This document shows positions 6,031 through 63,585 of a DNA stretch of 64,000 nt, piece by piece (positions within the stretch are counted from its first letter, which is position 1; every line of letters begins with the position of its first letter). Position numbers and translations under genes: made by a program. Origin of the DNA: Panorpa germanica. Taxonomy: Eukaryota; Arthropoda; Insecta; Mecoptera; Panorpidae. The stretch lies in NCBI GenBank assembly GCA_963678705.1, contig OY783207.1:21550001-21614000 (forward strand), written 5' to 3'. The notes beneath the pieces are model-generated. The model was not told where the DNA came from and did no database searches. It saw only the letters and a program-made list of their open reading frames with translations.

Positions 6031-8159
6031 TGCACTATATAGTTTAATATTGACTCTTTACTTCATAACATATTTTTTTAAGATTTTAATTACCAGAGAC
6101 TATTACAATCTGTCCTGTTTAGAGGACATTCAGTGATATAAAGTGTTAGGGTCGACTCATCCCTCAATTTCAATAGATTCTAGAATCTGATTACTTCGTT
6201 AATAGGTCTTGAGGTAACTTCCTTTTCAGTCTGCGTACTACCGAATTATTGGACATGACACAGCTGGTCAAATTGTTTGGATGTTCAAGTATTCCTTCTA
6301 AGATTTGGTTCTAAGTACTATTTCTTCATTAAATGTGGATATTTTCAGATCGCGATGTATTACATTATTAGGTACAAACCATGGAGCATTTGTGACAATC
6401 CTTAGCATTTTAGATTTAGATCTTTGAAAATAGAGCTAGATGCAGTACCTCATAGCTGGATACAGTTAGACCTTATTGGTTTAAGTATGGATTTGTAAAG
6501 TAGGAGTTTATTGTCGGTACATCTTCAGCAATTGTAGACTTAGCTGCTTTTTCTTTCTAAATACATTCTTCTTCCAAATAAGTCTCCTGTCTAAGTGCCT
6601 CACCTACTTGACATGGTCAGCCTGTGGTATTTTGTTTAGTTTGATATTTGAGCAGTTTTGCTTCGCTGGTCTTGATTCTCCAATTCTTCACCATGAAGAT
6701 TATTTGTCCTGATTTTTCTGTAGTATCTCTTCTATACTAGAGGATAAGTTTAAATTGTGTTAGCAGGATAAAATGAAAGTGAAGGCAAGCGTCCTCTAGG
6801 CCACATCGAATACATTGGAATTAAAGTGTAAACATTAAAATGAGGAAAATACTGAGACAGCAACTAAGATCGAGTAATTTTCTGAAGCAATGATCGTTGA
6901 AATGCTGCCAATGTTGGCAGTAATGAAACGTAGGAGAAAAGTGAAGCGCGAGGAAAGCGTATGCAGCATTAACAAAAGAGTTGTTTATTAAACCAACTCG
7001 CACTGAAACGCAATAAGTCGCATTAATAACGACTTCCCCTTCGCTTTCCTTCTCTATCACATTATATTTATTATAAATCTAATGCCTTCTTCTACTGCTT
7101 TCCGTGCTGAACTGTGTCGCTTATCATTACCTTAATTATACGGATACATATGGTATTTATGTAGTATGCTACTAATAGTATACTGATGACAAGTCGCATG
7201 CTATTTATAAGACATTTATTTACATTCACAGATGTTAATAGCACATCATATTTCACCCGCAGCACAGATACCGTGCTATAAGTTCGACCGGGTTGCGCAT
7301 TCTGAAATCAATCAATTTTCTTGAGAATAGTATGATGTTATGCTACCTACTAGCATGCGTTTCAGCATCATAAAGATAAGCGTCCACCGATCTCCATTAG
7401 AAGCATTAACTTATCGTTTCAAACACTCAGGTTCTGTTCATTATATTTGAGAAAACACTTCATATTTTTAAATTTAGAGTTTAGTTCCTTGTTTTTTCTA
7501 GTCTTATCTTAATTATAACTAATACCTATTAAAGTCATTAATTTAAATGTAACAAGTATGTATGTTGGTTTGATAACAGATATCATATAATGTATCTAAC
7601 ACATTGAACAATCTACGTTTCATAAGGACAATGTGTTAAAAACATTCCACGACTAATAACTACGGAGCCTTGTATCTAAATCAGAATGAACTGGTCTGCG
7701 TCTGCAGTACTGCTCCTCTCACCCTCTTCCCCACAGTACTCCCCGTCGCTATGGAGTATCGGAGCCGTACGACGGGCGCCAACTGCCCTGGATTCGTGAA
7801 TGAGTTGATTCAAGAAGGGATGAATGCACTTGTAATATTGAAATTATATTACACATGTATGGAAACACGTAGCAACAGTTCGCTGGCTGAAAATTTACAT
7901 CATCGAAGGCTTCCGTTGGACCGGAGTGAAGTGAGTGGATTAGGCGGGTTATTTGAAATAAATAAATTAATATTTTCGTTAGTACAGAGACTACAGAGCA
8001 TACGAATATGATAGTATGACCGCCAATTCAACATTTGATTGATTTTAATGAGCGATGAAAATTTGGCCGTGTTTATTAAGACATTTATTTATTTACACCA
8101 TTTTATTTTGTTGCCTTTATCGTATGTAGCAGTAGTCAACAAAGTTCAACTCCGAGTCT
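6031..8159. other. non-coding stretch, no gene seen
   Basis: No ORF with recognisable motifs. A plus-strand frame at 7670-8011 is slightly richer in GC around 7690-7800, but it has no similarity I can name and no clear splice context. Confidence 0.35.
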
Positions 8160-8452
8160 AATGGTCTTGTGTCCTCATTTTTTAGTGGTCGATTTTTCAA
8201 TTGTTGATTGAAATTGATGTTGATATTGATAAATGTGTATTGGCGTGTCTATTTTATTAAATATCTAAATGTTGATGGAGTTTTAGCGCTAGATATGGTC
8301 GGCCATTTGTATGACGTGAAAATGTATTGTATAGGTCAGTTATTTATTGAGTAGGTCAGTGCTGTGGTAATGTTTTGTTGCTGTTGGTAGTTGAAATAAT
8401 CAAGTTAAGTTAAGAATAATAAGTTTTTATTTTATTTAACCCTGTTACAGCA
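8160..8452 (-). mobile_element. MITE, ATGGGCTTGTGTCC family, truncated copy
   Basis: It begins AATGGTCTTGTGTCCTCATT, continues through the family motifs TTTTAGTGGTCGATTTTTCA and GTAGGTCAGTGCTGTGGTAA, and stops inside TTTATTTAACCCTGTTA. The second half of the element is missing. Confidence 0.85.
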
Positions 8453-20321: not shown

Positions 20322-20948
20322 AATGGGCTTGTGTCCTCATTTTTTAGTGGTCGATTTTTTATATATTGATTGAAATTTATGTTAATAAATGTGTATTGGC
20401 GTATCTATTTTATTAAATATCTAAATGTTCACGGAGATATAGGAATTAAAAGTTTGAATTGTAGTTTTAGCGCTAGAAATGGTCGGCCATATTTTTATGA
20501 CGTGAAATGCATTTTAACGTCAGTTATTTGTTGAGTAGGTCAGTGCTGTGGTAATGTTTTGTAGCTGTTGGTAGTCAAATAATCAATTCAAGTCAAAGAA
20601 TAATAAGTTTTTGTTTTATTTATATTAATAATATTGAAATTTTATTGTTCCTTGAAATAGCTGTAAATAATATTTGATATTTTGATATATAAATACATAT
20701 AGCAGAGATTTATGAGCTGTAAGGTTAGTAATCTTACACAAGGATTGTGATGTCACATGCATTTGGAATGTGTACAACGTTGAATCCCTTTAGTAATTAA
20801 AGAGACAAAATGACTTTTTTAATTGTTAATATCTCTTAACATATAAGGAGTTATTAAAAAATAATTGAACATTTGAGGTTCTAGTAACCCACTTTATCAA
20901 TATATAGTACACTTTTATATAAATTAAGACATAGGACACAATCCCATT
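20322..20948 (-). mobile_element. MITE, ATGGGCTTGTGTCC family, full-length
   Basis: It begins AATGGGCTTGTGTCCTCATT and ends CATAGGACACAATCCCATT, 627 bp in reverse orientation relative to 48914-49544. All internal landmarks are present: TTTTAGCGCTAGAAATGGTC, the GTAGGTCAGTGCTGTGGTAA block, ACAAGGATTGTGATGTCACA and ACCCACTTTATCAATATATA. There is a short deletion around 20620-20630. Confidence 0.93.
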
Positions 20949-24755: not shown

Positions 24756-26288
24756 TTGACTCTAACTCCTGCACTTACGTGGTTCTTTATAACACTCTAC
24801 TTAAGCACGCGGACTTCACACCCCCCACCCCCACCCCACCACTTGACAAAGTTACGTGGTTTATAGCCCTTATTAGTGAAGTATCGAGAGGCCTATTTCG
24901 ATTTCAATGAGTAAAAACTATGTTCTTTCATATAATTTCAATATTCTTGATTAACATCTGTTAATGAACAAACGAGAAACACTTATGCTTGCATACTGTG
25001 AGAACAATGAGACAGTTATATAATTCTTATTTTTCGAGTTTTTAAGTATTAATTACCGTCAAGTTTTAACAGTGTAAAGATTTATATATTAAATTATAAC
25101 ATTTAACGTTGTAAGATTAATCGGTTCCGTAATACCGAACTAGTTACTCTACTACAAGTGGGGTGAACCGAATATTATCATAAAATAAAGTTTTCACAAA
25201 AGAAACTTTCGATTCGATTGGCTTATTTCGTAAATCAACCATTTTTTTTACTTTTTATTAGCACGGGTTACGTAAAAATAAAATAAACATAACTTTCGGA
25301 AAAAGTTGGGATGTTATAGATTTATAAGGTCAAACATCTTAACATTATTCACTCGGTCTACTTCCTTTCACGAACGGAACAATACAACATCGTTCTCGTA
25401 CCAAGTGGCGCAGTTTTTGTTTATCGGAGACGTAGATCTGTGTGAAAGAAAAGAAAAATTATTAAATTTTAACCGGATATCCGGTTGTAAACAAAAACGT
25501 TCATATACGTATTAAAAATGAAAATCATAAAAAAATAATATAACAAGATTGTATAGAAAAATTCATTAAAATATTCCACGTGTATTAAGTTTCAATTTCC
25601 ATGAATTTTCAAGGAAATGAACGTTTTAATAAAATACTGAGGTAAAAGAAAAACAAAGAAAATCAAAATGATATTTGTAACATGAGAAATCATTAGTCAC
25701 TAAGGTGAAAGAAGTTGACAGATGGCGCTCTGTGGCTTTGTGTATATTTGTAATTCTTATAGAGCATTTATTGTTGGCAAAGAAATTTAATATTTGTTAA
25801 TAATATTCCTGATACTCCAAAAAAAAATTATTTTAAGGTAGTCCACTAGTAAATTACTTATCTACAGAGTTTTATAAAATTTAAATAAAATGATAAATGT
25901 TTGAACCAGCTGTGAAGCGAGATATTAATAAATAAAGTGCGCTTCATTAAAATGCAGGAGGCCTACCAAGTATTTAATAAAGTATATCTCTAAAATGGAT
26001 CTACAGATTTAAAAAAAATCCTGATATATTGTAGAATAATAAATTAGGAAAATGTTGACTGTTCTTCAGATTGTTACACCAGTTAGTAAAAAGGTTTGCG
26101 ATAATCATTGTAGCCATTTTTGTCCCAGTTGTGCACCGTAAATTCTCCTTTTACCACTATTTATTATTAACTATTAATTATTATTTCATAACTTTTGTAT
26201 TTTCAACATTTGTGTCGAATAATTACCGTTCCGTTTATTATGACATGCCTGAATCCGTAAAATATTCTCCACTTTCAAGTACACAAAT
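24756..26288. other. non-coding stretch, no gene seen
   Basis: No gene is seen. A C-rich run (CACCCCCCACCCCCACCCCA) lies at 24820-24840. Confidence 0.35.
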
Positions 26289-26908
26289 AATGGGCTTGTG
26301 TCTTCATTTTTTAGTGGTCGATTTTTCAATTATTGATTGAAATTGATGTTGATAAATGTGTATTCGCGTGTCTATTTTATTAAATATCTAAATATTAACG
26401 GAGATATAGCAATTAAAAGTTTGAATTGTAGTTTTAGCGCTAGAAATGGTCGACCATATTTGTATGACGTGAACTGCATTTTAACGTCAGTTATTTGTTG
26501 AGTAGGTCAGTGCTGTGGTAATGTTCTGCAGCTGTTGGTAGTCGAAATAATCAAGTCAAGTCAAAGAATAAAAAGTTTTTATTTTACTTAACCCTGCTAA
26601 GGCAGACATAATATTGAAATTTGATTGTTCCTTGAAATAGCTGTAAATAATATATGATATTTTGATATATAAATACAGCAGAGCTTTATGAGCTATAAGG
26701 TTGGTAACCTTACACAAGGATTGTGATGTCACATGCACTTGGAATGTGTACAACGTTGAATCCCTTTAATAATTAAAGAGACAAAATGACTTTTTTAATT
26801 GTTAATATCTCTTAACATATATGAAGTTATTAAAAAGGTTCTAGAAACCCACTTTATCAATATATAGTACACTTTTATAGAAATTTAGACATAGGACACA
26901 AGCCCATT
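26289..26908 (-). mobile_element. MITE, ATGGGCTTGTGTCC family, near full-length
   Basis: It begins AATGGGCTTGTGTCTTCATT (preceded by TA) and ends CATAGGACACAAGCCCATT, in reverse orientation relative to 48914-49544. There is a small deletion near 26835. There is no coding capacity; the open frames inside are chance. Confidence 0.93.
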
Positions 26909-28547
26909 CTTCTCGAGTAACTCTTTTTTCCTTTAAGCTCTCACTCCAAAATATCAAAAAAAATACTCTAATAAATGTATGTAGTGAAAATGAAGATAAT
27001 TAAATATGCGCTTAGCCTAAAAACAGATTTGTGATAGAGCAGTGGTGAAATTAACATAAGACAAATATTCAATGAATATTAAGGAAGTTGAAACGGAACA
27101 AATTGTCACTAGATTTAAATACGAAGAGAATTTCAAAGAATGGCAATAAAAACATTTCAGTTAAGATAAAGCAAATTGTTATTGGTTAAAATTGAATCTG
27201 AAATATATATGATATAATAATAAAATATTTAAAATAACACACTTAGTCAGTAATAACAGTCAGAATTATCCTATTACTACGTTATTAATTTTACACGTCA
27301 TATGTAAGTAAACATTTACACATTTACACATTTAATAAATGAACAAACTGCTTAGTGCTTACCATTTAAGTAATTGTCCGTTCCAGCAATCATCATAACT
27401 TGTATAAGGTAAAAAACTAATTAAAAAACACGATAAATATAACACGGAGTAAAAAATGTTTATTTTAAAATTTATTTATTTATTATAATAAAAATTAATC
27501 ACATGGTTTAATTAAATATCAATTTATATATTCCTATCTAATATTTAAATTTTAATTACTTCATTTTCATACTCTAGAATCATTATGCATTGATAAAAAC
27601 TTCAATATTGTTTCATGTTTTCTTTTGAAATCATTAATTTCGGTATTCCATGAGAATAATTGTTTATCTACAGTTCTTAATCACAAATAAATGCAACTTA
27701 AACAATTGAAACATGTTTAATCTGGTTCTCGTTCAATAAATAATATATAATCAATATACATTTGGATTTTAGGTTATTTCAGTTTTTATTTTGTTTATAT
27801 TTATATTTTTTATTTAACATTTAATGCACAAAATTTGAACACATCATTCTCGCTCGACATTCTTGCTTTGTCTGATTTTCTGTGAAATGCTGTGAAACCG
27901 AAACAAACACGCGACGCTGCGGCCTGCACCTGCATTACACAACACCGTAGCGTTCGTAGCGCTCGTAGCGGACGTAGTGCCAGCATTAATTAAATCCAAG
28001 ACGTAGACGAAGAGCTCTACGACACGTAGTTATGTTCCGCGCTGCGTAGAACAACAAAAATTCACAATGAAAATACTATAAATAAAAATGATGCTGCCTA
28101 AAATTGAAGATGTATATCAGAATGAAATTATTTATTTTCCAAAGAAAATTGTTAGATGCAATAATTTTAAATATTAGCTATTTAGTATTTATCATGGAAG
28201 TATTTGGTACACATAATGAAAAATCTGTTTAGAAAAGTTCAACAATTTTCTATTCGCTTTTTCTGGTTTACATATACTGCCATCTATTATTTACTTGTTT
28301 AACTAACTGTAAAAACAAAGTGTGTTTCTTAGAAGTAGGAATCTGCCCGAGAGCATGACTTGTCGTTTGATTTACTCTTAATACTGGTAACACTACTATC
28401 TGTGAAACACTGAATAATTATTTAATGTTCTGTGTGAAGTTATACAAAATCTTTAAGTTGACGTTAAATACATCATAACCAAATATTCACAGTCATCGTC
28501 ACCAAAAGTGTTTATTTTAAAATAAAAATTGTTATTTAGGCAAAATT
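26909..28547. other. intergenic region upstream of Rpt5
   Basis: Very AT-rich DNA. The CGTAG-core array at 27943-28060 is the only GC-rich patch. The sequence just before the Rpt5 start (TTATTTAG|GCAAAATT) could be a splice acceptor, so a 5' untranslated intron is possible. Confidence 0.4.
27943..28060. repeat. CGTAG-core repeat array with inverted units
   Basis: Forward units (CCGTAGCGTTCGTAGCGCTC, then GTAGCGGACGTAG) are followed after an AT spacer by mixed-orientation units (GACGTAGACG, AGCTCTACGACACGTAG, CTGCGTAGAAC). It shares the CGTAG core with the arrays at 11309 and 21248. Confidence 0.6.
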
Positions 28548-29831
28548 ATGGCAACTTCAACAGCGACGCCTTGGGAAGATGAAGGTGATGATCAATTAAG
28601 CTCAGAAGTTTTACGAATGTCAACAGATGAAATAACAAGTCGTGCTCGTTTGCTGGACAATGAAATTAAAATTATGAAAAGTGAAGTAATGAGAATTTCA
28701 CATGAACTTCAAGCTCAAAATGATAAAATTAAGGAAAATACTGAAAAACTGAAGGTAAATAAAACATTACCTTACCTTGTGTCAAACGTTATTGAATTAT
28801 TAGATATAGACCCACAAGAAGAGGAGGAAGATGGTGCCATTGTGGTGCTGGACTCCCAGAGGAAAGGTAAATGTGCTGTTATTAAAACATCTACAAGACA
28901 AACTTACTATTTGCCAGTGATTGGACTTGTTGATCCTGAGAAGTTAAAACCTGGAGATCTTGTTGGCGTGAATAAAGATTCGTATTTGATTTTGGAAACC
29001 TTGCCAGCTGAATACGACGCCCGTGTAAAAGCTATGGAAGTTGATGAACGTCCTACGGAGCAGTATTCTGATATTGGAGGTCTTGACAAGCAAATCCAGG
29101 AGCTAATTGAGGCAGTAGTGCTGCCTATGACACATAAGGAGAAGTTCGTCAATTTAGGAATCCACCCTCCAAAAGGTGTATTACTTTATGGGCCACCAGG
29201 TACTGGTAAAACCCTTTTAGCCCGAGCATGCGCTGCTCAAACAAAATCAACTTTCTTAAAACTTGCTGGACCACAACTAGTTCAAATGTTTATCGGTGAT
29301 GGAGCTAAGTTAGTTAGAGATGCATTTGCACTTGCTAAGGAAAAGTCTCCTGCGATTATATTTATAGACGAACTCGACGCTATTGGTACCAAACGTTTCG
29401 ATTCAGAGAAAGCTGGAGATCGTGAAGTTCAACGTACTATGTTGGAACTTTTGAATCAGCTCGACGGGTTTAGCTCTACAGCTGATATTAAAGTAATTGC
29501 AGCAACGAACAGAGTCGATATTTTAGATCCTGCTTTATTAAGATCAGGTAGATTGGATAGAAAGATTGAATTCCCACATCCAAATGAAGAAGCAAGAGCA
29601 CGTATTATGCAAATTCATTCTCGAAAAATGAATGTTAGTCCTGATGTCAACTTTGAGGAGCTTTCGAGATCAACAGACGATTTTAACGGGGCTCAATGCA
29701 AAGCTGTCTGCGTCGAAGCTGGTATGATAGCGTTAAGGAGGTCTGCTGTTGCTGTAACACATGAAGACTTCATGGACGCTATAATGGAAGTACAAGCCAA
29801 GAAGAAGACAAATCTTAATTATTATGCTTAA
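28548..29831 (+). CDS. Rpt5: 26S proteasome regulatory subunit 6A (Rpt5/PSMC3)
   Basis: A single uninterrupted frame of 427 residues encodes the AAA ATPase subunit Rpt5 of the 19S regulatory particle base, which unfolds ubiquitinated substrates and feeds them into the 20S core. An N-terminal helical coiled-coil segment (about residues 25-70) precedes the OB-fold region (about 75-165). The AAA domain follows, with Walker A GPPGTGKT at 215-222, Walker B IIFIDELD at about 270-277, and the SGRLDRK arginine-finger region at about 333-339. The protein ends LNYYA, giving the HbYX motif that docks into the 20S alpha ring. Length and ends fit the family, so the first ATG (context AAAATTATGG) is taken as start. 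A possible splice acceptor (TTATTTAG) 9 bases upstream suggests a 5' untranslated intron. The coding sequence has no introns. The gene converges with SEL1L. Confidence 0.97.
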
Positions 29832-36762: not shown

Positions 36763-36906
36763 GTGAAATTAATGGCATCCAGTCACAATTGTCTTTCAGT
36801 TAAATTGATTGTATCTAGCCACAATTTCCTTTCGGAGAAATAAACTGTATCTACTCACAATTGGCTTTCACTGAAATCCATTGTGTCTAGTCTCAATTGC
36901 CTTACG
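36763..36906 (+). repeat. 36-bp degenerate tandem repeat, four units
   Basis: Four units of exactly 36 bp run 36763-36798, 36799-36834, 36835-36870 and 36871-36906. Each has the pattern AAAT..AT.GTATCTAG.CACAATT followed by CTTTC. The units differ at roughly a third of positions, but the period is constant. A lone related unit lies at 22763-22798. The array lies about 210 bp upstream of the first 7SL gene. Confidence 0.85.
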
Positions 36907-37119
36907 GAGTAGGTCAAGTTGGCTTTGCGAGGCTCTAGGCACGCGCCTTGTGCAGCTACAGTTAAATACCTGGTTCTTTCTAAGTTTTACAATTTGCAAG
37001 AAGATATGATTGCAATCACAATAAGCTAAATATTCAAAAATGCTTAAGTTTTATTTAAGAAGACTGCTTACGATGGAAACATCTCAGATGTTTACTTTAT
37101 GTTGACGATATTGTCTTTA

Positions 37120-37435
37120 TCTTTCGACCGGGAGCGTGGCGCCTCCTGTAATCTGAGCTACTCGGAGGTCGGGTTTTGAGGATTTCTTGAGGTCGGGAGT
37201 TCTGGTGCTGGGTGGCGTATGTTGACTGGACGTCCGCACTAAGCTCGCCATCAACATGGGTACCCTGGGGGAGCTTGGGGTATTCAGGTTGTCTAAGGAG
37301 GGGCGAACCGGGCCAGGGAGGACACTCAGCAGCCAAGAGTCCCCGTGGTGAGCAGTAGTGGGATCGCGTCCGGGAGTACGTGCCCAGTTTCAGCCCGATC
37401 AAGACAGAGAGACCAAAATCTTTTGCTACTTTTTT
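37120..37435 (+). ncRNA. 7SL: SRP RNA (7SL), complete copy A
   Basis: The sequence follows the metazoan signal recognition particle RNA from end to end. The Alu domain carries GGGAGCGTGGCGCCTCCTGT then AATCTGAGCTACTCGGAGGT. The S domain has GACGTCCGCACTAAGCTCGC, GTCTAAGGAGGGGCGAACCG and the helix 8 SRP54-binding segment GTGAGCAGTAGTGGGATCGC. The 3' strand of the Alu domain (AAGACAGAGAGACC) follows, with a pol III terminator of seven T at 37431-37437. The 7SL RNA is the scaffold of the particle that targets nascent secretory proteins to the ER. The exact 5' end is estimated. The gene lies about 400 bp upstream of a U6 gene in the same orientation. Open frames on the minus strand here are antisense artefacts. 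Confidence 0.93.
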
Positions 37436-37779
37436 TAAAATATATTTTTTTATTATTAACAATCAAATTAATTTATTTGTTATTATTTATTGAAATTTAA
37501 AGACAATTTTCAAGACACGAGCAACTATACATATAACTCTACCTAATAGTTTGCGTCTTGGATAATATTATGATTGACTTCAAGATGGCGCAACTATATT
37601 TTTGAAAATCAATACTAATTTCGATGCATTGTTATTCCCTAATTAACAAGTTTTCTAATTGTATCTTAAGCTAGGTGAATAACTTAAATTATAATAGTTA
37701 TAGTACAATTACTTTTTTGACCACAAATATGCGTATTTAAATAAAATTTTAGATTTGAAATTTGAATAACAGTCACTAC

Positions 37780-37812
37780 TTTTGTACACGGAAGATGTGT
37801 CCTATATATACA
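37780..37812 (+). promoter_or_regulatory. U6 copy A promoter block (PSE-like plus TATA)
   Basis: TTTTGTACACGGAAGATGTG runs into TCCTATATATACAATTT, 21 to 53 bases before the U6 start. The block is almost unchanged in front of U6 copies B (40978-41012) and C (44377-44412), while the flanks further upstream have diverged. The spacing fits the TATA box (about -25) and the proximal sequence element of insect U6 genes; its function here is inferred. Confidence 0.7.
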
Positions 37813-37832
37813 ATTTCTAAGCAATTACTCTT

Positions 37833-37849
37833 GTTCTTGCTTCGGCAGA

Positions 37850-37889
<40 letters not shown>

Positions 37890-37939
37890 GGCCCCTGCGC
37901 AAGGATGACACGCAAAATCGTGAAGCGTTCCACATTTTT
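37833..37939 (+). ncRNA. U6: U6 spliceosomal snRNA, copy A
   Basis: A full-length 107-nt U6 gene from GTTCTTGCTTCGGCAGAACA through the ACAGAG box (GATACAGAGAAGATTAGCAT) and GACACGCAAAATCGTGAAGC to CGTTCCACATTTTT. The sequence is essentially the insect U6 consensus. U6 pairs with the 5' splice site and with U2 and U4 at the core of the spliceosome. The pol III terminator is the T-run at 37935-37941. Confidence 0.97.
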
Positions 37940-38190
37940 TTGTCAATTTTCATTTTGTGTCAAACAAAACGTGTAACAAATGTACATTGTTAAGATTATT
38001 ACAAATTTTGACAAGATATAATAGAATCTTAGTTTTTGTAAATTGATCATCACTTGAAAATTATAATAATTTATAGTGGGTAAAGTAACCCTTAGCAGTG
38101 GGTAGAAGATCCGAAAAAATTAATGTCTAGGGTTCCAGGTGCAGAAAGTGGGGGATCACCAAATTAACCTGCTGCTATATATTTTTACAG

Positions 38191-38242
38191 AAGGAGAGCG
38201 GGTTTGCGATGTCAACGGGATGCACCATCGCCAGGAACCTTG
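38191..38242 (+). pseudogene. copy of pickpocket exon 8, frameshifted (unit A)
   Basis: This 52-bp segment sits between a perfect acceptor (TATTTTTACAG) and donor (GTAAGTAG). It is nearly identical to exon 8 of the pickpocket gene (43999-43946) but lacks two bases in the ATGCACTGCATC segment (here ATGCACCATC), which shifts the frame. No other pickpocket exons flank it. It was carried along with the duplicated 7SL-U6 unit. Confidence 0.85.
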
Positions 38243-38448
38243 GTAAGTAGTATTCGCAAATAGAGTAGCTCAGGTTTTTTTATCCTACAATCAGATGCAA
38301 ATCTGGTGGTAGGTGCGCTAGGCGTGATATGTGATGTAAGAGAAGATTATTTAATTCCAGAGAGTTCAGAATTTTACCTTTGCAAAACATGGAGTGCGAA
38401 TTATTTTTATTATCAGAAAATTAGTCCAATTAATCTTCAATATGCGTC

Positions 38449-39059
38449 AATGGGCTTGTGTCCTATGTCTTAATTTCTACAAAAGTTTACTATATATTGA
38501 TAAAGTGGGTTACTAGAACCTCAAATGTTCAATTATTTTTTAATAACTACTTACATGTTAAGAGATATTACCAATTAAAAAAGTCATTTTGTCTTTTTAA
38601 TTATTAAAGGGATACAACGTTGTACACATTCCAAGTGCATGTGACATCACAATCCTTGTGTAAGGTTACTAACCTTACAGCTCATAAATCTCTGCTATAT
38701 GAATATATATATATCAAAATATCAAATATTATTTGCAGCTATTTCAAGGAACATTCAAATTCCAATATTATGTCTGCCTTAGCATGGTTAAATAAAATAA
38801 AAACTTATTATTCTTTGATTTGACTTGATTATTCGACTACCAACAGCTCCAGAAGATTACCACAGCACTGACCTAATCAACAAATAACTGACGTTAAAAT
38901 ACATTTCACGTCATAAAAATATGGTCGACCATTTTTAGCGCTGAAACTACAATTCAAACTTTTAATTGCTATATCTCCGTCAATATTTAGATATTTAATA
39001 AAATAAACACGCCAATACACATTTATTAACATCAATTTCAATCAAGAATTGAAAAATCG
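38449..39059 (+). mobile_element. MITE, ATGGGCTTGTGTCC family, 3'-truncated
   Basis: It starts AATGGGCTTGTGTCCTATGT and follows the full-length copy 48914-49544 to AGAATTGAAAAATCG, where it stops before the distal terminal repeat. It lies between duplicated units A and B. Confidence 0.92.
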
Positions 39060-39484
39060 CCCATTTCCGTTTATTGCATTGTGTTTTTGATGCATTAATT
39101 TTACTGCGCCACTTTGCGCAGAAACTCGTAACCCTATGTAACGCATCTTTGGAGTACATAAGTACGATTGATCATCAGCATATGTCGCCTATAGATGGTT
39201 CTATACGTAGATCCGATATGTTTATATTGTAGAGTATTAGGGAGGGACTCTGGCTGCAAATGATCTGTTTGTAATGTAGAAATGTATGACTAGAATTAAA
39301 ATGTTTGAATTAAATGTAACTTTAATAAGTACATCTTTTACAACAAACATCATTGCCAAACCGTATCAAACGCTCTGTGGATATCCAGAACAACACATGC
39401 ACAGTCTGTGAACACCCCTCTGTGAGATCGTTTGCAGCGTGCTCAGTGACACGGATAGTTCCGTGAGTTGCACTACGAGTCTAG

Positions 39485-39895
39485 TTTGAATATGTTAAAT
39501 TTCAGAAAAATGGTTTACCGTTCTTGGCGAAGAGGATTGAGATTGGTTGTCATGTCATTGGTGAGGACAGTCATGGCTTGGATGCGTGATTTGGGACACC
39601 CGTTTAGATTGTGGCTGTAGTTGTACGCGAATGAGTGCATATCCGTGGATATTGCACCGCTCGTGCCAGTGGTGAACAGTGTTCGGTTCACCATAATACT
39701 TCCTTTCGCTTTGGGATATTCTCCCCCAGCTACATACCTAAAGTTCCACCTTTCCATGTACACAAGCAGGTACAATTACTGCAAAAGCTTTTCAAGTTTA
39801 TGGCCAATATAGGCTGGCATCGCACACTTCTAGGAGTGGAGGGAAAATCAATTAAGATTTACTGCACACAGTGTACTGTATAACTCGTACTCCGT
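39485..39895. repeat. 5' segment of duplicated unit B with open frame on minus strand
   Basis: This segment is shared, inverted, with 45500-45893 and in shortened form with 41455-41640. On the minus strand 39775-39515 is open for 86 codons (for example TGTSGAISTDMHSFAYNYSH), ending near a possible donor GTAAAC. In the 45.7 kb copy a deletion near AAAGGAACCGAACACTG breaks the frame. No protein family is recognised. It may be an exon fragment of an unrelated gene captured in the duplication, or a chance frame. Confidence 0.5.
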
Positions 39896-40283
39896 TTAAG
39901 AAATAAACGAAGCATCGAGTATGCAGCTGGCCTGTTGATGAGGGTAATTAATCTTGCAGTTTTACGCTGGAGTGACTACCCTAAAACAATTTTTTCTTTA
40001 TGGTAGAAAGATAGAGGCAACTCTAGAAATAGACAGAACGAACACAGACAACGCTAACAATTTTATCTTAAAACAATACTTGTCGCAATGTTAAAATAAC
40101 TAAATATTTTATAAAATTCAGAAGACATCAGTACTTTAATTATTCCTATAAAAAAAAGTTAACTATTTGGGTTGAAATTAACTAAAAGAGTTTTTACAAG
40201 TGAAGTTTTATTTAAGAAGATTGCACAATGCACATGATGTAAATATATCAGATGCTTCTTCGTGTAGAAGATATTGTATTCAA
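39896..40283. other. spacer of duplicated unit B
   Basis: AT-rich sequence shared, inverted, with 45110-45500. Its right end (GTTTTATTTAAGAAGATTGC) is also shared with the region upstream of 7SL copy A (37045-37070), which suggests a conserved 7SL upstream segment. Confidence 0.55.
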
Positions 40284-40644
40284 CCTTTGACTGGGAGCGT
40301 GGCGCCTCCTGTAATCTGAGCTACTCGGAGGTCAGGTTTTGAGGATTTCTTGGGTCTCGAGGTCTAGGTTGGGGCCACTCAACAGCTGACAAACACCCGC
40401 CCCCACTTGCATCCGCCATTGCAAGCGACAGGACCGTGGGAGAGGCCAACTGGGGGGGTATTTTAGGCTGTCTTTGGTTACTTAGCTCCGTCTTAGGACA
40501 TTGTGAAAAACAGCCCTTAGCTCCTTCAGTCGTTGATGTGCAGTAAGTGTTGCGTGGTGGGTTCGAGTCCGAGAGTGCCCTTATATAACCTGAGCCCGAT
40601 ACACAAATACAAGAGAGACCAAAACCTTTTGCTACTTTTTTTTT
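40284..40644 (+). ncRNA. divergent 7SL-like RNA, copy B
   Basis: The 5' Alu-domain strand (GGGAGCGTGGCGCCTCCTGT and AATCTGAGCTACTCGGAGGT) and the 3' strand (CAAGAGAGACCAAAACC, then CTTTTGCTAC and a T-run at 40635-40644) match copy A. The middle S domain is strongly remodelled and about 45 bp longer. Only GGGGTATTTTAGGCTGTCTT and a GTGCAGTAAGTG segment can still be aligned to A, and the SRP54-binding CAGTAGTGGGATC is altered. Near the end lies GTGGGTTCGAGTCCGAGAG, which looks like a tRNA T-arm/B-box. The copy is nearly identical to copy C. It is either a variant SRP RNA or a pseudogene; the kept terminator and U6 spacing leave expression possible. Confidence 0.75.
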
Positions 40645-40977
40645 AATCTTATTTTTTTTTATCATTTCACATTTAGTAAAATAATTTATTTGTTATTAAT
40701 TATTGAATTTTGAATTTTTCGAACAATTTTTTTTTCAAGAAATCACATTTTGCGTTGATAAAGTTGGCACTCTCATTGTATAGATGGCGCAACGATATTT
40801 ATGGAAATTAATAGAAATTTCAGTGCATTGTTATCCCTTAATTAACAAATTTTTAAATTATATATTAAGTCAGGTGAATAATTCATATTATAATAATTAC
40901 AATACAAGTAAATTTTGTATCATAAATATATATACTTAAATAATATTATTGATTCAAAATTACAGTAACTCTCAGTA

Positions 40978-41012
40978 TTTTTGTACACGGAAGATGTGTC
41001 CTATATATACAA
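40978..41012 (+). promoter_or_regulatory. U6 copy B promoter block
   Basis: TTTTTGTACACGGAAGATGT and CCTATATATACAATTTG, in the same position relative to U6 as in copy A. Confidence 0.7.
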
Positions 41013-41031
41013 TTTGTAAGCAGTTACTCTT

Positions 41032-41048
41032 GTTCTTGCTTCGGCAGA

Positions 41049-41088
<40 letters not shown>

Positions 41089-41138
41089 GGCCCCTGCGCA
41101 AGGATGACACGCAAAATCGTGAAGCGTTCCACATTTTT
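41032..41138 (+). ncRNA. U6: U6 spliceosomal snRNA, copy B
   Basis: Identical to copy A over the whole 107 nt, including the ACAGAG box and the 3' T-run at 41134-41140. The flanking 140 bp downstream are also nearly unchanged, so the duplication or gene conversion was recent. Confidence 0.97.
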
Positions 41139-41339
41139 TTGTCAATTTTCATTTTGTGTCAAACAAAACGTGTAACAAATGTACATTGTAAAGATTATTA
41201 CAAATTTTGACAAGATATAATAGAATCTTAGTTTTTGTAAATTGATCATCACTTGAAAATTATAATACATAATGTCTAGGGTTCCAGGTGCAGAAAGTGG
41301 GGGATCACCAAATTAACCTGGTGATATATATTTTTATAG

Positions 41340-41393
41340 AAGGAGAGCGAGTTTGCGATGTCAACGGGATGCACTGCATCGCCAGGAATCCTG
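41340..41393 (+). pseudogene. copy of pickpocket exon 8, reading frame intact (unit B)
   Basis: This 54-bp segment has the same length as the true exon, with acceptor (TTTTTATAG) and donor (GTGAGTAG). It keeps the CDVNGMHCIAR motif; the last codons read RNP instead of RNL. It lies on the opposite strand to the pickpocket gene and has no partner exons nearby, so it cannot serve that gene in its present orientation. Confidence 0.82.
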
Positions 41394-41454
41394 GTGAGTA
41401 GTATTCGTAAATAGATTAGCTTAGGTCCCCCGGTGAGCACACTTTAGTGATCAA

Positions 41455-41723
41455 TATCTAGAAAGGGATATTCTCCCCTTTCTGCATACCTGACTTCCAA
41501 CTTACCGCGTGCACATACAGATGCAATTTCTGTACTTAAATTTAGAGAGTTATGGCCAAAATAAGACTGATATCGCAAAGGCTCCAAGAGTGGAGAAAAA
41601 TCAATCTTGATTATACTGCACCCAGTGTAGTGTACTACTCGCACTTGGAACGATACAGAGAAGATTAGCATGGCCACTGCGCAAGGATGACACGCAAAAT
41701 CGTGAAGCGTTCCACATTTTTTT
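41455..41723 (+). pseudogene. rearranged unit with 3' fragment of U6
   Basis: 41455-41640 is a diverged copy of 39705-39895 (GGGATATTCTCCCC and AATCAATCTTGATTATACTG match). At about 41645 it joins directly to the last 79 nt of U6 (TTGGAACGATACAGAGAAGA to the T-run). The fragment lacks the U6 5' hairpin and has an A in GGCCACTGCGC, so it is a U6 pseudogene. The 7SL and promoter parts are missing. Confidence 0.88.
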
Positions 41724-42204
41724 GTCAATTTACTTTAAAAATACATAACATTACCAATTTAAAAAAGGTTTCCATCCATATTTTCTATAATTAATTCTCA
41801 TAAGGGTCCCTTAGGAATAAATGAAATAAATTTTTAGGTTATGAATTTCTTTTGTTCCCACATTTTTAATATGGTCATATTACTACATATCACCAGTATA
41901 CATATTCAATTATTGGTTCAGGACAGTAAAAATGTTAACTCTCCTGGCACAGACGATATTCAATTGAAATTGAATTTTTCAAAATCATGTTGCTTTGCTA
42001 ACAGACAAAGTCAATATGTGCTTTTGTTTCAAACACTTCCTAGCACGATGGAAACACAGTAGTTATATCTTTTAATAAGTACGCAAAATCCAAAATCTCG
42101 TTTAGTCTCCGAAGTATTTAGCTTTTACCTATTATTTGCAAAGTCATGTTATAGAAAAAGTTATCAATGAATATTTTACATTATAGAATTTTCTAGAACA
42201 TTGG

Positions 42205-42370
42205 ATTTCTTTAATAATTAAAGAGACAAAATGACTTCTTTAATTCTATATATCTTCTAAAATATAAGGAGATATAAAAAATAATCGGACATTTGAGGTT
42301 CTGGTAGTCAACTTTATTAATATATATAGTTACAATTTTATAGAAATTAAGTTATGGTTCACAAGCCCAT
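42205..42370 (-). mobile_element. MITE fragment, ATGGGCTTGTGTCC family
   Basis: Terminal 165 bp of a diverged reverse copy: TTAATAATTAAAGAGACAAA, AACATTTGAGGTTCTGGTAG and GTTCACAAGCCCAT at the end. It lies just beyond the 3' end of the pickpocket gene. Confidence 0.75.
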
Positions 42371-42470
42371 ATCTCCAACATCTTGCAACTTATTGTACAT
42401 TTTTCATTTTGATACATAAGACCTTTATACATAAGTTCTTAGCTACGTATAGCATAGCCAGTCAGTGTAC

Positions 42471-42476
42471 TTTATT
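42471..42476 (-). terminator. polyadenylation signal of the pickpocket gene
   Basis: AATAAA on the minus strand 9 bases after the TAA stop codon at 42487-42485. Confidence 0.55.
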
Positions 42477-42484
42477 TATATTAA

Positions 42485-44300
42485 TTATGGTGCATAATAC
42501 ATCTGCTTTTTATATTTTTGAAAATCAAAATAAAGTTTCAATGTATTAAAATACAATATTTCTATAAAACTCATAACACTACATCCAAGAAAGAAACCAG
42601 CTATTCCGCCCCAAGATGCTGCAAAGAAAATATGACCATGAAATATTGTGTGTTGGTAAATGGAATAATCACAATATCAACTAATTTTCTAATTTTGTAA
42701 ACTTTGTTACTTAGAAGGTCGTTTTGTCCGTAGATGACATCTCTCTTGAGTCTCATCCTAGGAGTCCTGACGAGTTCCCAACGGAAGTTGGTGCCTTTGA
42801 ACCACTGAATGGCCTTCTCCTTATGCTTAGTGAAATGAGTGTCCTCACAGTTTTGAACACAGGCCACAGAGTCTGCGTCCTTTGAAGACATTGCAGTTAT
42901 TTTTGCTGAATGAAATATAGTTAACTTTATTTAAATAGTGTAACTGTACGCCTAAAATGTATGCAACAATAATATCTTTGCAAAGAAATATGATTTGTAG
43001 TTTTGTGTTTCTTGATAAATATATTTACAAAGTTGATATTTTGTAAACAATCATTTTTGAAAACTGTTTCTGAATTAATTCCTCAATTTTCTGGGAAACC
43101 GTTATTTTGGTAATAAAATGGCACTCGTTGCTGAATAATTATTAATCCGTGATATATAGAATGCTGAAATTTTGGAAATGTATTGCGCAATTGCGTAGGT
43201 AAACTCATTGCGCAGACTTAGAGGTTCGGTAGGGAACTTTGGATAAATTTCAAACTTTAGATTGTGCAATAATTAAAATACAACATACTTAATAATTTGA
43301 CGATTCATCAGCATAAAGATATTTTATTCAAACTCTTTACAAAAAATTATTTTACAATTATATATTATATCTTCATTGTTTCGGTGTCTAGCTTATACTT
43401 AAACTTTAAACCGTGTCGTCGTTTTAAGAATCCTATCCCTATTAACCCTTTTATGAGTAAAGGGTCAACAATGACTATTTTTATCCTTTTTATTTTATTT
43501 CTTCAAATATAGCGAGTTATTAAATATAATTGTACATTTGAAGTTCTGGTAGCCAACTTTATGAGTTCCGTTTTATATAAATTTAGACATTGTATTGTAT
43601 TAAGACATAACGCTATCAAAAAATTAAAAACATATAATCAAAATTCAAGTCTAAAAAGAAAATTGTGTACCGCCACATAATCATAGATGTTATAAAATTA
43701 ATGAAACAGTTTATTAATTTAACGTGTAGCGAACGTAAAAGTATTATTTCAATATTTAGACAAATGTGAAATATTAATTAAGGTAGAATATGTCTGTAGC
43801 TTTATAATAAAAATAATTCGCACTCCATGTTTTGCAAAGGTAAAATTCGTCTCATATCACGCCTAGCGCACCTACCACCAGATTTGCATCTGATTGTAGG
43901 ATAAAAAACTTTACCTGAGCTACTCTATTTGCAAATACTACTTACCAAGGTTCCTGGCGATGCAGTGCATCCCGTTGACATCGCAAACTCGCTCTCCCTC
44001 TGTAAAAATATATAGCACCAAGTTAATTTGGTGTGGCCCCACTTTCTGCACCTGGAACCCTAGACATTAATTTTTTCGGATCTTCTACCTACTGCTAAGG
44101 GTTATTTTACCCACTATAAATTATTATAATTTTCAAGTGATGATCAATTTACAAAAACTAAGATTCTATTATATCTTGTCAAAATTTGTAATAATCTTTA
44201 CAATGTACATTTGTTACACGTTTTGTTTGACACAAAATGAAAATTGACAAAAAAATGTGGAACGCTTCACGATTTTGCGTGTCATCCTTGCGCAGGGGCC

Positions 44301-44340
<40 letters not shown>

Positions 44341-47300
44341 TCTGCCGAAGCAAGAACAAGAGTAACTGCTTACAAATTGTATATATAGGACACATCTTCC
44401 GTGTACAAAAATACTGAGAGTTACTGTAATTTTGAATCAAAAATATTATTTAAGTATATGTATTTGTGGTACAAAATTTACTTGTATTGTAACTATTATA
44501 ATTATATTATTCACCTGACTTAATATATAATTTAAAAATTTGTTAATTAAGGGATAACAATGCACTGAAATTTCTATTAATTTCCATAAATATCGTTACG
44601 CCATCTATACAATGAGAGTGCCAACTTTATCAACGTAAAATGTGATTTCTTTGAATTCGAATAATTGTTCGAAAAATTCAAAATTCAATAATTAATAACA
44701 AATAAATTATTTTACTAAATGTGAAATGATAAAAAAAATAAGATAAAAAAAAAGTAGCAAAAGGTTTTGGTCTCTCTTGTATTTGTGTATCGGGCTTAGA
44801 TTATATAAGGGCACTCTCGGACTCGAACCCACCACGCAACACTTACTGCACATCAACGACTGAAGGAGCTAAGGGCTGTTTTTCACAATGTCCTAAGACG
44901 GAGCTAAGTAACCAAAGACAGCCTAAAATACCCCCCCAGTTGGCCTCTCCCACGGTCCTGTCGCTTGCAATGGCGGATGCAAGTGGGGGCGGGTGTTTGT
45001 CAGCTGTTGAGTGGCCCCAACCTAGACCTCGAGACCCAAGAAATCCTCAAAACCTGACCTCCGAGTAGCTCAGATTACAGGAGGCGCCACGCTCCCAGTC
45101 GAAGGTTGAATACAATATCTTCTACACGAAGAAGCATCTGATATATTTACATCATGTGCATTGTGCAATCTTCTTAAATAAAACTTCACTTGTAAAAACT
45201 CTTTTAGTTAATTTCAACCCAAATAGTTAACTTTTTTATATAGGAAAAATTAAAGTACTGATGTCTTCTGAATTTTATAAAATATTTAGATATTTCAACA
45301 TTGCGACAAGTATTGTTTTAAGATAAAATTTTTAGCGTTGTCTGTGTTCGTTCTATCTATTTCTAGAGTTGCCTCTATCTCTATCTTTCTACCATAAAGA
45401 CAAAATTGTTTTAGGGTAGTCACTCCAGCGTAAAACTACAAGATTAATTACCCTTATCAACAGGCCAGCTGCATACTCGATTCTTCGTTTATTTCTTAAA
45501 CGGAGTGAACACTGTGTGCAGCAAATTTTAATTGATTTTCCCTCCACTCTTAAAGGTGTGCGATGCTAGCCTATATTGGATATAAACTTGCGCAGTTTTT
45601 GCAGTAATTGCACCGGCTTGTGTACATTGAAAGGTAGAACTTTAGGTATGTAGCTGGAGGAGAACATCCCAAAGGTAAAGGAACCGAACACTGTTCACCA
45701 CTGGCACCAGCGGTGCAATGTCCACGGATATGCACTCATTCGCGTACTACCACAGTCACAATCTAAACGGGTGTTCCAAATCACGCATCCAAACCATGAC
45801 TGGGCCAACTGGAGGCTCTATGCTGAAACCTATCTTAACCCTCGTCGCTAACAACGGTAAACATATTTTTATGAAATTTAACATATTTAATGTAGACCAA
45901 GATGTCACAAAGTTTGAGCTCTCTGTGGCATGTGGGAAACAATTTATCCTAATTTAAAGAAAGTCACAATGGGACCTATCCCGCTCAACGAGGATTAATT
46001 AACCTCCTTTTTTTAGGTTTCTTGCGAAATAAACTTATCTAGTTGCAACCGTACCTATTGCCGTTAAATTCGAACAGTGCAGAAATTTAATGCACTTATT
46101 AATTTATTATAAATTAAATAAGTACAAATAACATGAGGTAGCGGTATAATAAAACATGATATAATGTAGAAAATAACTCTCAGCAGAAGACAAAAATTTC
46201 AAAGTTTCAAGCAATTCAAAAAGTTTACCATTCTACATAGAAATCGCTATAATTATACTGACAACATTAAATTTCAAGGTCATGTACCTTGTTTCGGAAT
46301 AAAATAAGGAACGCAGCTGCAGAAACGCTTGCAAATCTGCGCTCTGGCTTCCATCCTGCACAGATTATAAGAGTAAATGTTGAATCTTCCTGGAAATGGC
46401 TCATCAGTAAATCTGAAAATTGTAATCACAGGAATAATTAACAAAAAGTATGTACATCGCATTTTCAACCAAATGCGACTTTATGCCTCGTACACATTGG
46501 TGCAACTTAAATATTCGACATCTAACATTTTTTGGAAGAAGTTGTACAACACGTCCACATTGGTGTGACATGTAACGTAATACATCGGTATTTTTTATAG
46601 TTTGTACAAATTCATTCTACAAGTTTGGTACGTTTAGAAGGAAGTAATAAAAATAAGTTCTTTAAGAATAAGGTCTGTTCTACCAGATTTGTTTTTTCAA
46701 TAAATTCAATGCTTTGATTGCTTTCCATGAACATTTACCGCAAAACAAAGATAATATTTTATTTATTTAATTGTTTTTTACATTGGATTTGGAATCTTGT
46801 CATGTCGGTAGTACTTGACGAATTTGTTCAAGATGACATCGCAAATCGCCATCCTTTATGCTTTCTCGACAAGCTTTGGAAACATATCTGTATAATAAAA
46901 ATACTCTGCAAACTTTTAAAGAATAGCATAAGTAGAGTTTTTATTAGTGACGCATGTTGAAGTCGCACTAGTCAGGACAATAAAATTACAACACATTTAG
47001 TACACTCCTATGTAAATAACGTCAACTTATGAATGTTGGATGTCGCATGATTAAGTCACGTCAATGTGTACGAGGCTTTAGAAACAATAGAAAGAAATCA
47101 AAAAACTTTGATAGAATGTTAATATCACCGGATCAAATATCCGTGATTTAAGAAAAACTTTACAAAAAATGTAGAAATATTATTGAAAAATTTTGAAGAA
47201 CATTTTATTTTGTTTTCTTTTAAATTTCTCGGCATTGGACGGCTCTATGGCTTTGGTAGTTATTATCAAAAGTAAAGAGAACACAATTTTGAACGAATTT

Positions 47301-50300
47301 CTTTTGCGCAACTTTTCTCTAAATTCTGTAACAAACGCGTTAAGTCCGTCTTAAGATAAAACTGTTATCGTTGTCTTTGTTTGTTCAATGTGTTCGTATG
47401 GTGTTGTCTCTGTCTTTTTAGGACAAAAACAAGATAATCTTATCATGACTTAAAGGGGCAAACCGCACCTGCATTTCCTTTGAGAGATGTACATGTCCTT
47501 CGCTCTGTTCGTGCAGATAATGGGCAGTGACTGCAATTCCAGGAAGCAGTAGTAGCTCGTGTCACATCGCATAATCTTGCGCATCCCCGCTATTTCAAAC
47601 GGACTGTGCACGAACACCTGCGAGAATGTCCAAGAACACGAATCTTTACCACTAAATTACTTATTGAAATGTTCACCTTGTCTACCTGAATTGAACTAAT
47701 TAGAATTCAATGTCACTAACACAAATAGTTCATAAAAACGAAATGCCATCGAAGTGCTCATCGTTTTAGCAAGACAGTTGGTTTGGAAAACGAAATATGA
47801 GTGAAATGTACCAATGCTGTACATATTGAACGCTAGAAACATCTAGAACATCTATAAATTTTATATAAAAAAATACATCCTACACATTAATTTGACATAG
47901 AAAGCGATAAAAATGTTTGTGATGATGGACGGGATAGAGAAAATGGATGACAGCAGTGATGGCGGAAAGGAAAAGGATATACGCGTAAATAAATACTAAC
48001 ATCAAAGCCAGCTTCAATTTCCAAGACTTGCGCAAAAACTTCCCCATCCAGTGCATGCACAGTGTATAAGGGTCGTTGCGTAATCCCCTTGTGACGATTC
48101 GTTGGATTTAAAATGTATCTGTAAAATGTAACGATCAAAATTTGTATTTGTTGTTTAAATTTAAGGTCTCTTCATGTGCAAATATTGAAATTTAACTAGA
48201 AAATATAGCAATATTCATTTTCTAAACTTATTTTTGCGGTTCTAACGGCTTGCGTTTTTAGATTTTGATTCGCGTTTATAATTACTTACATAAAACGATT
48301 TAAACATAAAAAAACATGTTTTTTTTTGATAATATTTAACCTGCTGTATAGTATAACCATCTATATTTCGCGAGTCAAAAATAGCTAAGTATCGGTTCAC
48401 CTTAAGATATTATTTTGCATTATTTTGAATTTTGAATAGCGATTGAGATCCTGCAAGTGCTGTATCCACCAGAAAGTCATATATGTAAGTATAGATAATT
48501 CGTAGTGATCCACGTTAATGTCAGAAAAGTGTAAATAGAGACTGGATTAGGCGATCCCATGCCCATCTAATATTATGTGCGAAAAATAATGAAATACGTT
48601 GATTACTCCGGTGACTGATAGTCAGATATGAGCGAGTTAATCGTGAAGCAGATGCCCATTTCAGTGACAGTTTTCTGGAACGTCAACTCCCGGCCGTCCG
48701 CGGTTGTGATGGTGTGCTCCATTGTTGATGTTATTTCCAATAAAATCTAGAATGTAAAGAACATCATAATAAAATAAGGTAAGATTAAGTTAACATGATT
48801 ATGAGAAGCCATAACTAATTTAACTTTGATAACAACAAAACACAGAAAATGTTTTTGTTCACTGTTCGAAGATCGAACTCGAAGACACAGCAATCTGTTC
48901 TGTTCTTCGACCTAATGGGCTTGTGTCCTATGTCTTAATTTTAAAAGTGTACTATATATTGATAAAGTGGGTTACTAGAACCTCTAATGTTCAATTATTT
49001 CTTAATAACTCCTTATATGTTAAGAGATATTAACAATTAAAAACGTCATTTTGTCTCTTTAATTATTAAAGGAATTCAACGTTGAACACATTCCAAGTGC
49101 ATGTGACATCACAATCCTTGTGTAAGGTTACCAACCATACAGCTCATAAATCTCTGCTATATGTATTTATATATCAAAATATCAAATATTATTTACAGCT
49201 ATTTTAAGGAACAATCAAATTTCAATATTATGTCTGCCTTAGCAGGGTTAAATAAAATAAAAACTTATTATTCTTGGACTTGATTATTTGACTACCAACA
49301 GCTACAAAACATTACCACAGCATTGACCTACTCAACAAATAACTGACGTTAAAATGCATTTCACGTCATACAAATATGGTCGACCATTTCTAGCGCTAAA
49401 ACTACAATTCAAACTTTTAATTGCTATATCTCCGTCAATATTTAGATATTTAATAAAATAGACACGCCAATACTCATTTATTAACATCAATTTCAATCAA
49501 CAATTGAAAAATCGACCACTAAAAAATGAGGACACAAGCCCATTAATGGAATTGTAAAATGGAATATCCCTAATTATACCTTTAGATAATCATTACTCGA
49601 AATCCCTGGGTATAAAGGAACATCTTCAAAACTATCAAATTTTGCATTTGCTAAATTGCGTAGAAATATCTCCAACTCAGTCTTATTAGATGCCATCGAA
49701 TTACTGAAATAAATAGAAATAAAAGTTGAGTAAATTTGTGCAAGACAAGATTTTCAAGACAGAAACTTATCCAGATGAAGTGGCAGGCGTCAGACTTACT
49801 TGATGTACTGCTGTAATAATATTTCATCAATTTTATCATGCGGACAAATTGTGACACTTGGGAAACTGGAGTTCCAGCTGTAGTAGTCTCTCTCAACGGA
49901 GATGACAGTTGGTGACATCCAGTGACGGACCAAGGTTGTCATGCCGGCGTATATCGCTGTGCAGATTGCGCAAACAATCGCTAGAGTCCACATAATGCTG
50001 AAATACGAATTTAGCATTAATGCAATGCATCTGTTAAAAGAATTACTCCAATAACTTTTAATTTTTATTAATGGGCTTATGAACCATGTCTTAATTTCTA
50101 TAAAGCTGTGCATTGATAAAGTTGGCTACATGCTACATGTTACGTCAGAAATATGGCCGAAATCTGTAGCGCTAAAACTACAATTCGAATTTTTAATTGC
50201 TTTATCTCCGTTAACATTTAGGTATTTAATAAAATAAAAACGCCAATGTTCACATTTATTAACATCTATTTCAATCAACAATTTAAAAATCGACTCCTAA

Positions 50301-63097: not shown

Positions 63098-63585
63098 CCC
63101 CGAACCAGGGTACTATCACTTAGTGTAAAATTCATCACTGTCGCTTTAGGCGTCCTCAATCCGTCATTTTTGGAATAGTGAACTAAAATGCTCGGCGACT
63201 CAACATTTGAAGGGAATAAAGGGTAAAGGGAGTGCACTGAGCTAAAGTTCAGTGCAGTTCAGTGATACCACATATTAAAACATAATATTTTTGTATAGTA
63301 CTAAACAAATGCAAGTAATTGTATACAAAGTGATACAAAGCATAACACAAAATAAAACTACAATATCAATATATATTTATGTATATATATAAATATTATG
63401 TTCAAATATGTGGTATCACTGAACTGCACTAAACTTTAGCTCAGTGCACTCCCTTCACCCTTCATTCCCTTCAAATGTTGAGTCGCTGAGCATTTTAGTT
63501 CACTATTCCAAAAATGGCGGACTGAGAGCGCCTAAAGCGACAGTGATGAATTTTACACTAACTGATAGTACCCTGCCCCGAACAC
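63098..63585. mobile_element. fold-back element with arms of about 190 bp
   Basis: The left arm 63098-63287 (CCGAACCAGGGTACTATCAC onward, through AGTGCACTGAGCTAAAGTTC) is repeated inverted at 63393-63585 (CACTGAACTGCACTAAACTT through GATAGTACCCTGCCCCGAAC). The loop is about 100 bp of AT-rich sequence. The arms are about 95 percent alike by eye. It is non-coding; the short frame in the left arm is chance. Confidence 0.88.

Follow-up and report, generated by a model that had tools for sequence, protein, structure and literature searches.

The window analysed here, a 64-kb stretch of the genome of Panorpa germanica (64,000 nucleotides; GenBank assembly GCA_963678705.1, contig OY783207.1, positions 21,550,001 to 21,614,000 of the forward strand), contains a small array of linked genes for the 7SL RNA of the signal recognition particle (SRP) and for U6 small nuclear RNA (snRNA). 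We consider it probable that this RNA polymerase III (pol III) array arose when a 7SL–U6 block was duplicated, inverted and partly deleted at the DNA level, with U6 being homogenized and the S domain of 7SL being lost from two of the copies, units B and C. In this history, the duplicated block would have comprised 7SL, a spacer of ~400 bp, U6 and a 3′ flank. U6 and its immediate 3′ flanks would have been homogenized, and the probable cause is intracluster gene conversion combined with purifying selection acting on U6. Unit A would supply the functional SRP RNA. Only unit A carries a bona fide 7SL gene.

Results

Collinear 7SL–U6 units

The homology of the units was assessed by self-alignment of the window, repeated with more permissive scoring. 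RNA genes were identified by an Rfam search at the gathering thresholds, and the whole window was also scanned at E ≤ 1. Units A, B and C (Table 1) are collinear in every pairwise self-alignment, each with E = 0.0. B and C align at 90.9% identity over 2016 columns, A and C at 83.9% over 1028 columns (1434 columns at 78% with permissive scoring) and A and B at 80.0% over 885 columns (1294 columns at 75%). A first-pass annotation of this DNA had described a threefold 7SL–U6 unit with one copy inverted and the pair copied together. The order, orientation and homology of the units, and their copying as one block with one inversion, are borne out by these alignments. The identification of 7SL in B and C is not, as both copies reach 28.7 bits, below the 70-bit cut-off of the Rfam family RF00017. 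Besides A, B and C, no SRP match was found at E ≤ 1 in the 64-kb window. B and C form an inverted repeat with 2.5 kb between its two arms, and they have in common an upstream arm of ~720 bp for which no match was found at unit A by self-alignment with permissive scoring. With the 3′ ends set in this analysis, U6 starts 409 bp after the end of 7SL in A and 399 bp after it in both B and C, rather than the ~390 bp estimated earlier.

Each of the three units has a full-length U6 gene above the gathering threshold, with a T-run terminator and an upstream TATA. As had been noticed at first pass, the three copies are identical (107/107 nt) and have a near-identical promoter block (48/50 positions between A and B or C). 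We take the U6 sequence to agree with that of Drosophila, including the CACATTTTT end, and accordingly class it as insect-like. The 19-mer GTACACGGAAGATGTGTCC and then TATATATA precede each of the three full genes and, allowing up to three mismatches, the 19-mer occurs in the window only there. A U6-type promoter was also considered for the 7SL genes and rejected: the ungapped matches in A and B are within shuffle expectation, being equalled by 15–161 of 200 mononucleotide shuffles. The 18-, 21- and 24-mers scored higher at the 7SL of C (3, 1 and 13 of 200 shuffles as good, respectively), at a site 130 bp from the 7SL start, and the equivalent site in B is unremarkable. The 7SL genes do not convincingly appear to share the U6 promoter element. 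In unit A, 7SL has TTTT at its 3′ end and T7 directly downstream; a dicistronic 7SL–U6 transcript was rejected because this T7 run sits after 7SL.

Uneven identity along the units

The identity between units differs sharply from one segment to the next. Between A and B it is 69/74 for nt 1–75 of 7SL, 262/325 (80.6%) for the spacer, 127/128 plus a 20-column gap for the near part of the 3′ flank and 140/150 for its further part. Between A and C the spacer has 267/320 identities (83.4%), the near 3′ flank 146/148 and the further part 142/150. In comparisons of A with B or C, the identity is therefore 98.6–99.2% in the near 3′ flank of U6 and 80.6–83.4% in the spacer (p = 6e-9 for A–B and p = 1e-7 for A–C). 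Since the near flank lies beyond the terminator and holds no known promoter, its near-identity suggests that the U6 block was converted or was replaced at a late stage.

Positions 38276–38413 of the A flank are common to C only and are missing from B. The earlier claim that the cluster as a whole undergoes concerted evolution is narrowed by the identity values. This within-genome comparison supports such a process, as the probable one, for U6 and its untranscribed 3′ flank and not for the whole pair; in the 7SL half, A and B/C are strongly diverged in the middle and the B and C copies lie under the Rfam cut-off.

Degeneration of 7SL in units B and C

The 7SL RNA of unit A folds better than its shuffles (z = −3.31; 200 shuffles), whereas the fold of the B copy is no better than shuffles (z = 0.01; 100 shuffles). 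Between the conserved ends of the B and C copies lie 215–258 nt that match A weakly. The middle of B is still homologous to that of A, with z = 4.4 in global and z = 4.0 in local alignment (0/1000 shuffles as good) and z = 5.8 in a second test (0/200 shuffles as good). For comparison, the alignment z is 4.9 for the first half of the spacer, 15.0 for its second half and 11.1 for the block upstream of 7SL. The 7SL centre has thus diverged about as far as the first, more diverged half of the spacer, and accelerated evolution of the S domain was rejected on these grounds, even though the divergence exceeds that of the second half. Insertion of a tRNA-like short interspersed element (SINE) into the middle of B and C, an idea that came from a B box in these copies, was also rejected, as the middle of B is collinear with that of A above all shuffles. 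The B-box stretch of B aligns to GGATCGCGTCC in A.

Loss of base pairing was followed by carrying the Rfam structure from the 7SL of A to B through one alignment; the pair counts were made for B, from which C differs by 2 nt. Among the 80 non-terminal pairs of A, 40 are unchanged in B, five are changed and still paired, 14 are broken, 20 are gapped on one side and one is gapped on both. Pairing would be kept under random change in 27.7% of cases, or 5.25 of 19, so the five of 19 changed non-terminal pairs that are still paired correspond to the neutral value. The 23 terminal pairs formed in A all persist in B: 20 are unchanged and three are changed, all three of which still pair (chance 0.021). 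Although the numbers are small, these counts imply that the S domain drifts freely and that the Alu end seems to be constrained. By the fold and the pair counts of B, the structured S domain (helices 6–8) is gone from B and C; the features of an Alu domain, namely the UGUNR motif (as UGUAA) and the terminal stem, are present in both. The drift of the S domain and of central helix 5 makes it unlikely that B or C would provide normal SRP RNA.

A fourth, partial unit

The first-pass annotation counted three units only and missed a partial unit D (41465–41721) as well as a 95-column arm match at 47442–47348. In D, arm sequence is joined directly to a 5′-truncated U6 that carries one substitution (C62A), lacks a complete 5′ end and is not preceded by the promoter 19-mer. 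The U6 stretch has 86/87 identities, whereas the adjoining arm is at 73% (p = 9e-9). The match goes ~10 bp beyond the annotated end of U6, or 15 bp when scored permissively, as would be expected of a copy made at the DNA level rather than from RNA. D would be a fourth copy of the unit from which, relative to B, ~1.16 kb was deleted between the arm and nt 31 of U6. Since the 3′ flank of D is not homogenized, the simplest story would be that its U6 was under selection until a recent deletion; alternatively, the U6 of D may have been converted after the deletion. The arm match at 47442–47348 suggests that the array may formerly have reached beyond unit C. No other RNA families were found by the Rfam search in 45900–49000, beyond unit C.

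Conserved ends and alternative explanations

Several observations weigh against duplication followed by plain decay. The first concerns the ends of 7SL: the B and C copies match A at 61/63 positions of the 5′ 63 nt and at 30/33 of the 3′ block, giving 91/96 compared with 262/325 for the spacer (Fisher p = 0.0005). The second is that the B and C RNAs differ at only 2/343 nt, and the third is that each contains a perfect B box; simple decay predicts none of these. The minimum free energy folds of B and C retain the Alu hairpins and the terminal stem. Furthermore, the homology of the 7SL middle is unseen by BLAST at E ≤ 1 and depends on the global and local alignments. Gene conversion, for its part, is deduced from identity patterns in one genome, and these could arise in part from recent duplication if unknown elements in the flanks were under selection.

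A possible but distinctly less likely explanation is that the ends of B and C are conserved as pol III promoter and terminator elements, or as short conversion tracts from A, and that the RNA would be functionless. The A box, placed at nt 6–15 of human 7SL (PMC7245038), falls in the conserved 5′ block, the 3′ block holds T-runs, and the way in which identity varies around U6 is suggestive of conversion in this array. Nevertheless, two separate short tracts would be needed that match both strands of one helix (the 5′ 63 nt and the 3′ ~30 nt), and the region directly upstream of 7SL has only 63/77 identities (p = 0.006 compared with nt 1–63).

Slightly more doubtful is the proposal that B and C are functional 7SL paralogues reduced to the Alu domain. 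Each would encode a pol III RNA of ~340 nt, the ends of which would fold into an SRP9/14-binding Alu domain and the former S domain of which would be a free, drifting arm; it might act like Alu RNA or BC200, in translation control or by titrating SRP9/14. The identity of both ends to A around a diverged centre and the intact terminal pairing argue for this proposal, as does the UGUAA loop motif kept in B and C, which has the form UGUNR given for the SRP9/14 site of the Alu domain (PMC8185352). The differences between B and C point the same way: there are 2/349 in the RNA segments compared with 63/1034 in the arm and spacer (p = 1.5e-6). Perfect B boxes in the 64 kb are also confined to the two 7SL copies, with two found compared with 0.05 expected in the window and 0.0014 for the RNA alone; as the B box was noticed ahead of the test and the two copies represent one event, this is suggestive only. 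On the other side, the overall fold of B does not surpass that of shuffles. The terminal stem and the hairpin at nt 26–31 have an ensemble probability of ~0.4–0.5 in B and ~0.85–1.0 in C (for the terminal stem alone, ~0.44 in B and ~1.0 in C). When the promoter and RNA are compared with the spacer alone, the excess conservation is modest (3/436 compared with 10/338 differences; p = 0.02) and could reflect a conversion tract; the 87 bp upstream of 7SL differ at one position between B and C, and the likeness of the two RNAs could be due to either conversion or selection. Moreover, as B and C are near-identical, the three pair changes amount to one small sample from one alignment.

An extended form of the same idea, to which we would give a little less credence still, is that an Alu-domain-only SRP RNA evolved in place without retroposition. 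It would have kept the SRP9/14 end and the pol III promoter, gained a new perfect B box and shed the S domain, and would represent an invertebrate counterpart, of separate origin, to BC200/Alu RNA in a linked, self-homogenizing U6 array. It is very improbable that the repetition of the units was created during assembly by uncollapsed haplotypes or misjoins: B and C are inverted relative to each other, and their alignment shows 9% difference and 13 gap openings, A differs from B/C by 17–19% in the spacer, a different dispersed repeat lies between A and B, and D is differently truncated. We retain duplication with decay of the 7SL half as the preferred history, and judge from the sequence that B and C are most likely dying 7SL copies.

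Other features of the window

Table 1. Coordinates of the array and adjoining features in the 64-kb window
Feature	Position	Strand	Remarks
Unit A	37046–38413	+	Collinear homologue of B and C
Block upstream of 7SL, unit A	37046–37126	+	Common to B and C; identities A–B 64/78, A–C 65/78
7SL (SRP) RNA gene, unit A	37127–37423	+	Full length; RF00017, 255.2 bits, model 1–299
U6 promoter block, unit A	37783–37832	+	GTACACGGAAGATGTGTCC element and TATATATA; positions −50 to −1
U6 snRNA, unit A	37833–37939	+	RF00026, 118.4 bits
3′ flank, unit A	37940–38413	+	First 148 bp near-identical to C
Dispersed repeat, ~600 bp	38449–39063	+	Separates A and B, outside the array; self-alignment
Unit B	39479–41426	+	Collinear homologue of A and C
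Upstream arm, unit B	39479–40202	+	Common to C; B–C 643/696 aligned identities, 9 gap runs
Degenerate 7SL, unit B	40290–40632	+	Ends kept; S domain and central helix 5 drifted
B box in 7SL copy, unit B	40560–40570	+	Perfect GGTTCGAGTCC; one of only two matches in the window
U6 snRNA, unit B	41032–41138	+	RF00026, 118.4 bits; identical to A
3′ flank, unit B	41139–41426	+	Common flank; stops just short of the unit D match
Diverged arm copy, unit D	41465–41645	+	Matches B 39713–39891 at 73%; 68% to C
U6 nt 31–107, unit D	41645–41721	+	Rfam 90.1 bits, above gathering
3′ flank, unit C	43804–44250	−	Common flank, inverted
U6 snRNA, unit C	44251–44357	−	RF00026, 118.4 bits; identical to A and B
Degenerate 7SL, unit C	44757–45099	−	Two substitutions from B over 343 nt
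B box in 7SL copy, unit C	44819–44829	−	Perfect GGTTCGAGTCC; one of only two matches in the window
Upstream arm, unit C	45187–45897	−	Homologous to the B arm
Unit C	45897–43804	−	Inverted; collinear homologue of A and B
Weak arm remnant	47348–47442	−	Matches B 39982–40074; 73% over 95 columns, E 5e-11

The G+C content is 23–37% across the window in 2-kb steps, and the DNA is of eukaryotic type. The 3′ flanks of A, B and C each hold a stretch of 52–54 nt framed by exon-like splice signals (approximately 38191–38242, 41340–41393 and 43999–43946, respectively), with ACAG or ATAG ahead and GTAAG or GTGAG behind; the stretch in A is 2 nt shorter than those in B and C, so that no single reading frame is common to them. 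Directly 5′ of unit A, at 36763–36903, is a 36-bp tandem repeat of 3.9 copies. Long copies of the dispersed ~600-bp repeat, 89–94% identical to each other, are located at 3138–4252, 20322–20948, 26288–26908, 38449–39063 and 48914–49545, and there are also fragments (for example, 8159–8447). At 3138–4252 two copies stand head to head as a 1.1-kb palindrome, and a further self-complementary palindrome of ~470 bp (85.5%) lies at 63106–63575.

Weak Rfam matches under the cut-off to FTX_1, mir-1183 (in the window at E ≤ 1), RAGATH-30 and HYMAI were taken as chance. A protein-coding gene in 36–48 kb was rejected on inspection by eye only of 66 stop-to-stop frames of at least 50 amino acids, none of which looked coding. 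From 16 long frames in the window eight were submitted to Pfam, and there was one match. The frame at 28521–29828, 436 amino acids from stop to stop and matched by Pfam to AAA and proteasomal ATPase OB domains, is apparently intronless, and we take it to be Rpt5/PSMC3.

Discussion

The array invites comparison with several known systems. Like multicopy snRNA clusters under concerted evolution, it has identical coding regions, very similar flanks and a local cluster of copies. It differs from them in that 7SL is part of the unit, one copy is inverted, and U6 but not 7SL has been homogenized. Among 7SL-derived SINEs, the Alu domain was kept and the S domain lost in two independent lineages (PMC7245038), and the B and C copies resemble the SINE1 families (Alu, B1 and hagfish SINE1-1_EBu) in this respect. 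Unlike these elements, B and C show no dispersal in the window, are two DNA-duplicated copies with their flanks, and have an S domain that has drifted rather than been deleted. If they were transcribed, they would also be comparable to BC200 and Alu RNA, as an Alu-domain RNA with SRP9/14 (PMC8185352), but would differ in having an independent insect origin and in having arisen in place. A last parallel is the 7SK-like snRNA:7SK:94F of Drosophila melanogaster, likewise a second, diverged relative of an insect RNA that is normally made by pol III; it is a different RNA, and its authors argue for a probable RNA polymerase II precursor (PMC8406779).

No report of a linked 7SL–U6 unit was found in the open PMC literature among the matches listed, a body of text outside which most subscription papers lie, and this result is weak evidence of novelty. 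Pattern scans of viral and genome contig collections, which hold no eukaryotic genomes, and a distant search of phage records gave zero matches.

The meaning of the array depends on two points. If relatives have also retained the pairing of 7SL with U6, this would be a case of two essential but unrelated pol III RNAs evolving as one unit, with one half homogenized and the other free to diverge. If the B and C RNAs are made, they would constitute a natural separation of the Alu and S domains outside the known 7SL-derived SINEs, and the function of a free Alu domain would become testable in an insect. Should neither be true, the locus would still be a clean, small pol III cluster in which one full 7SL gene and three full U6 genes stand beside copies degenerate to differing degrees.

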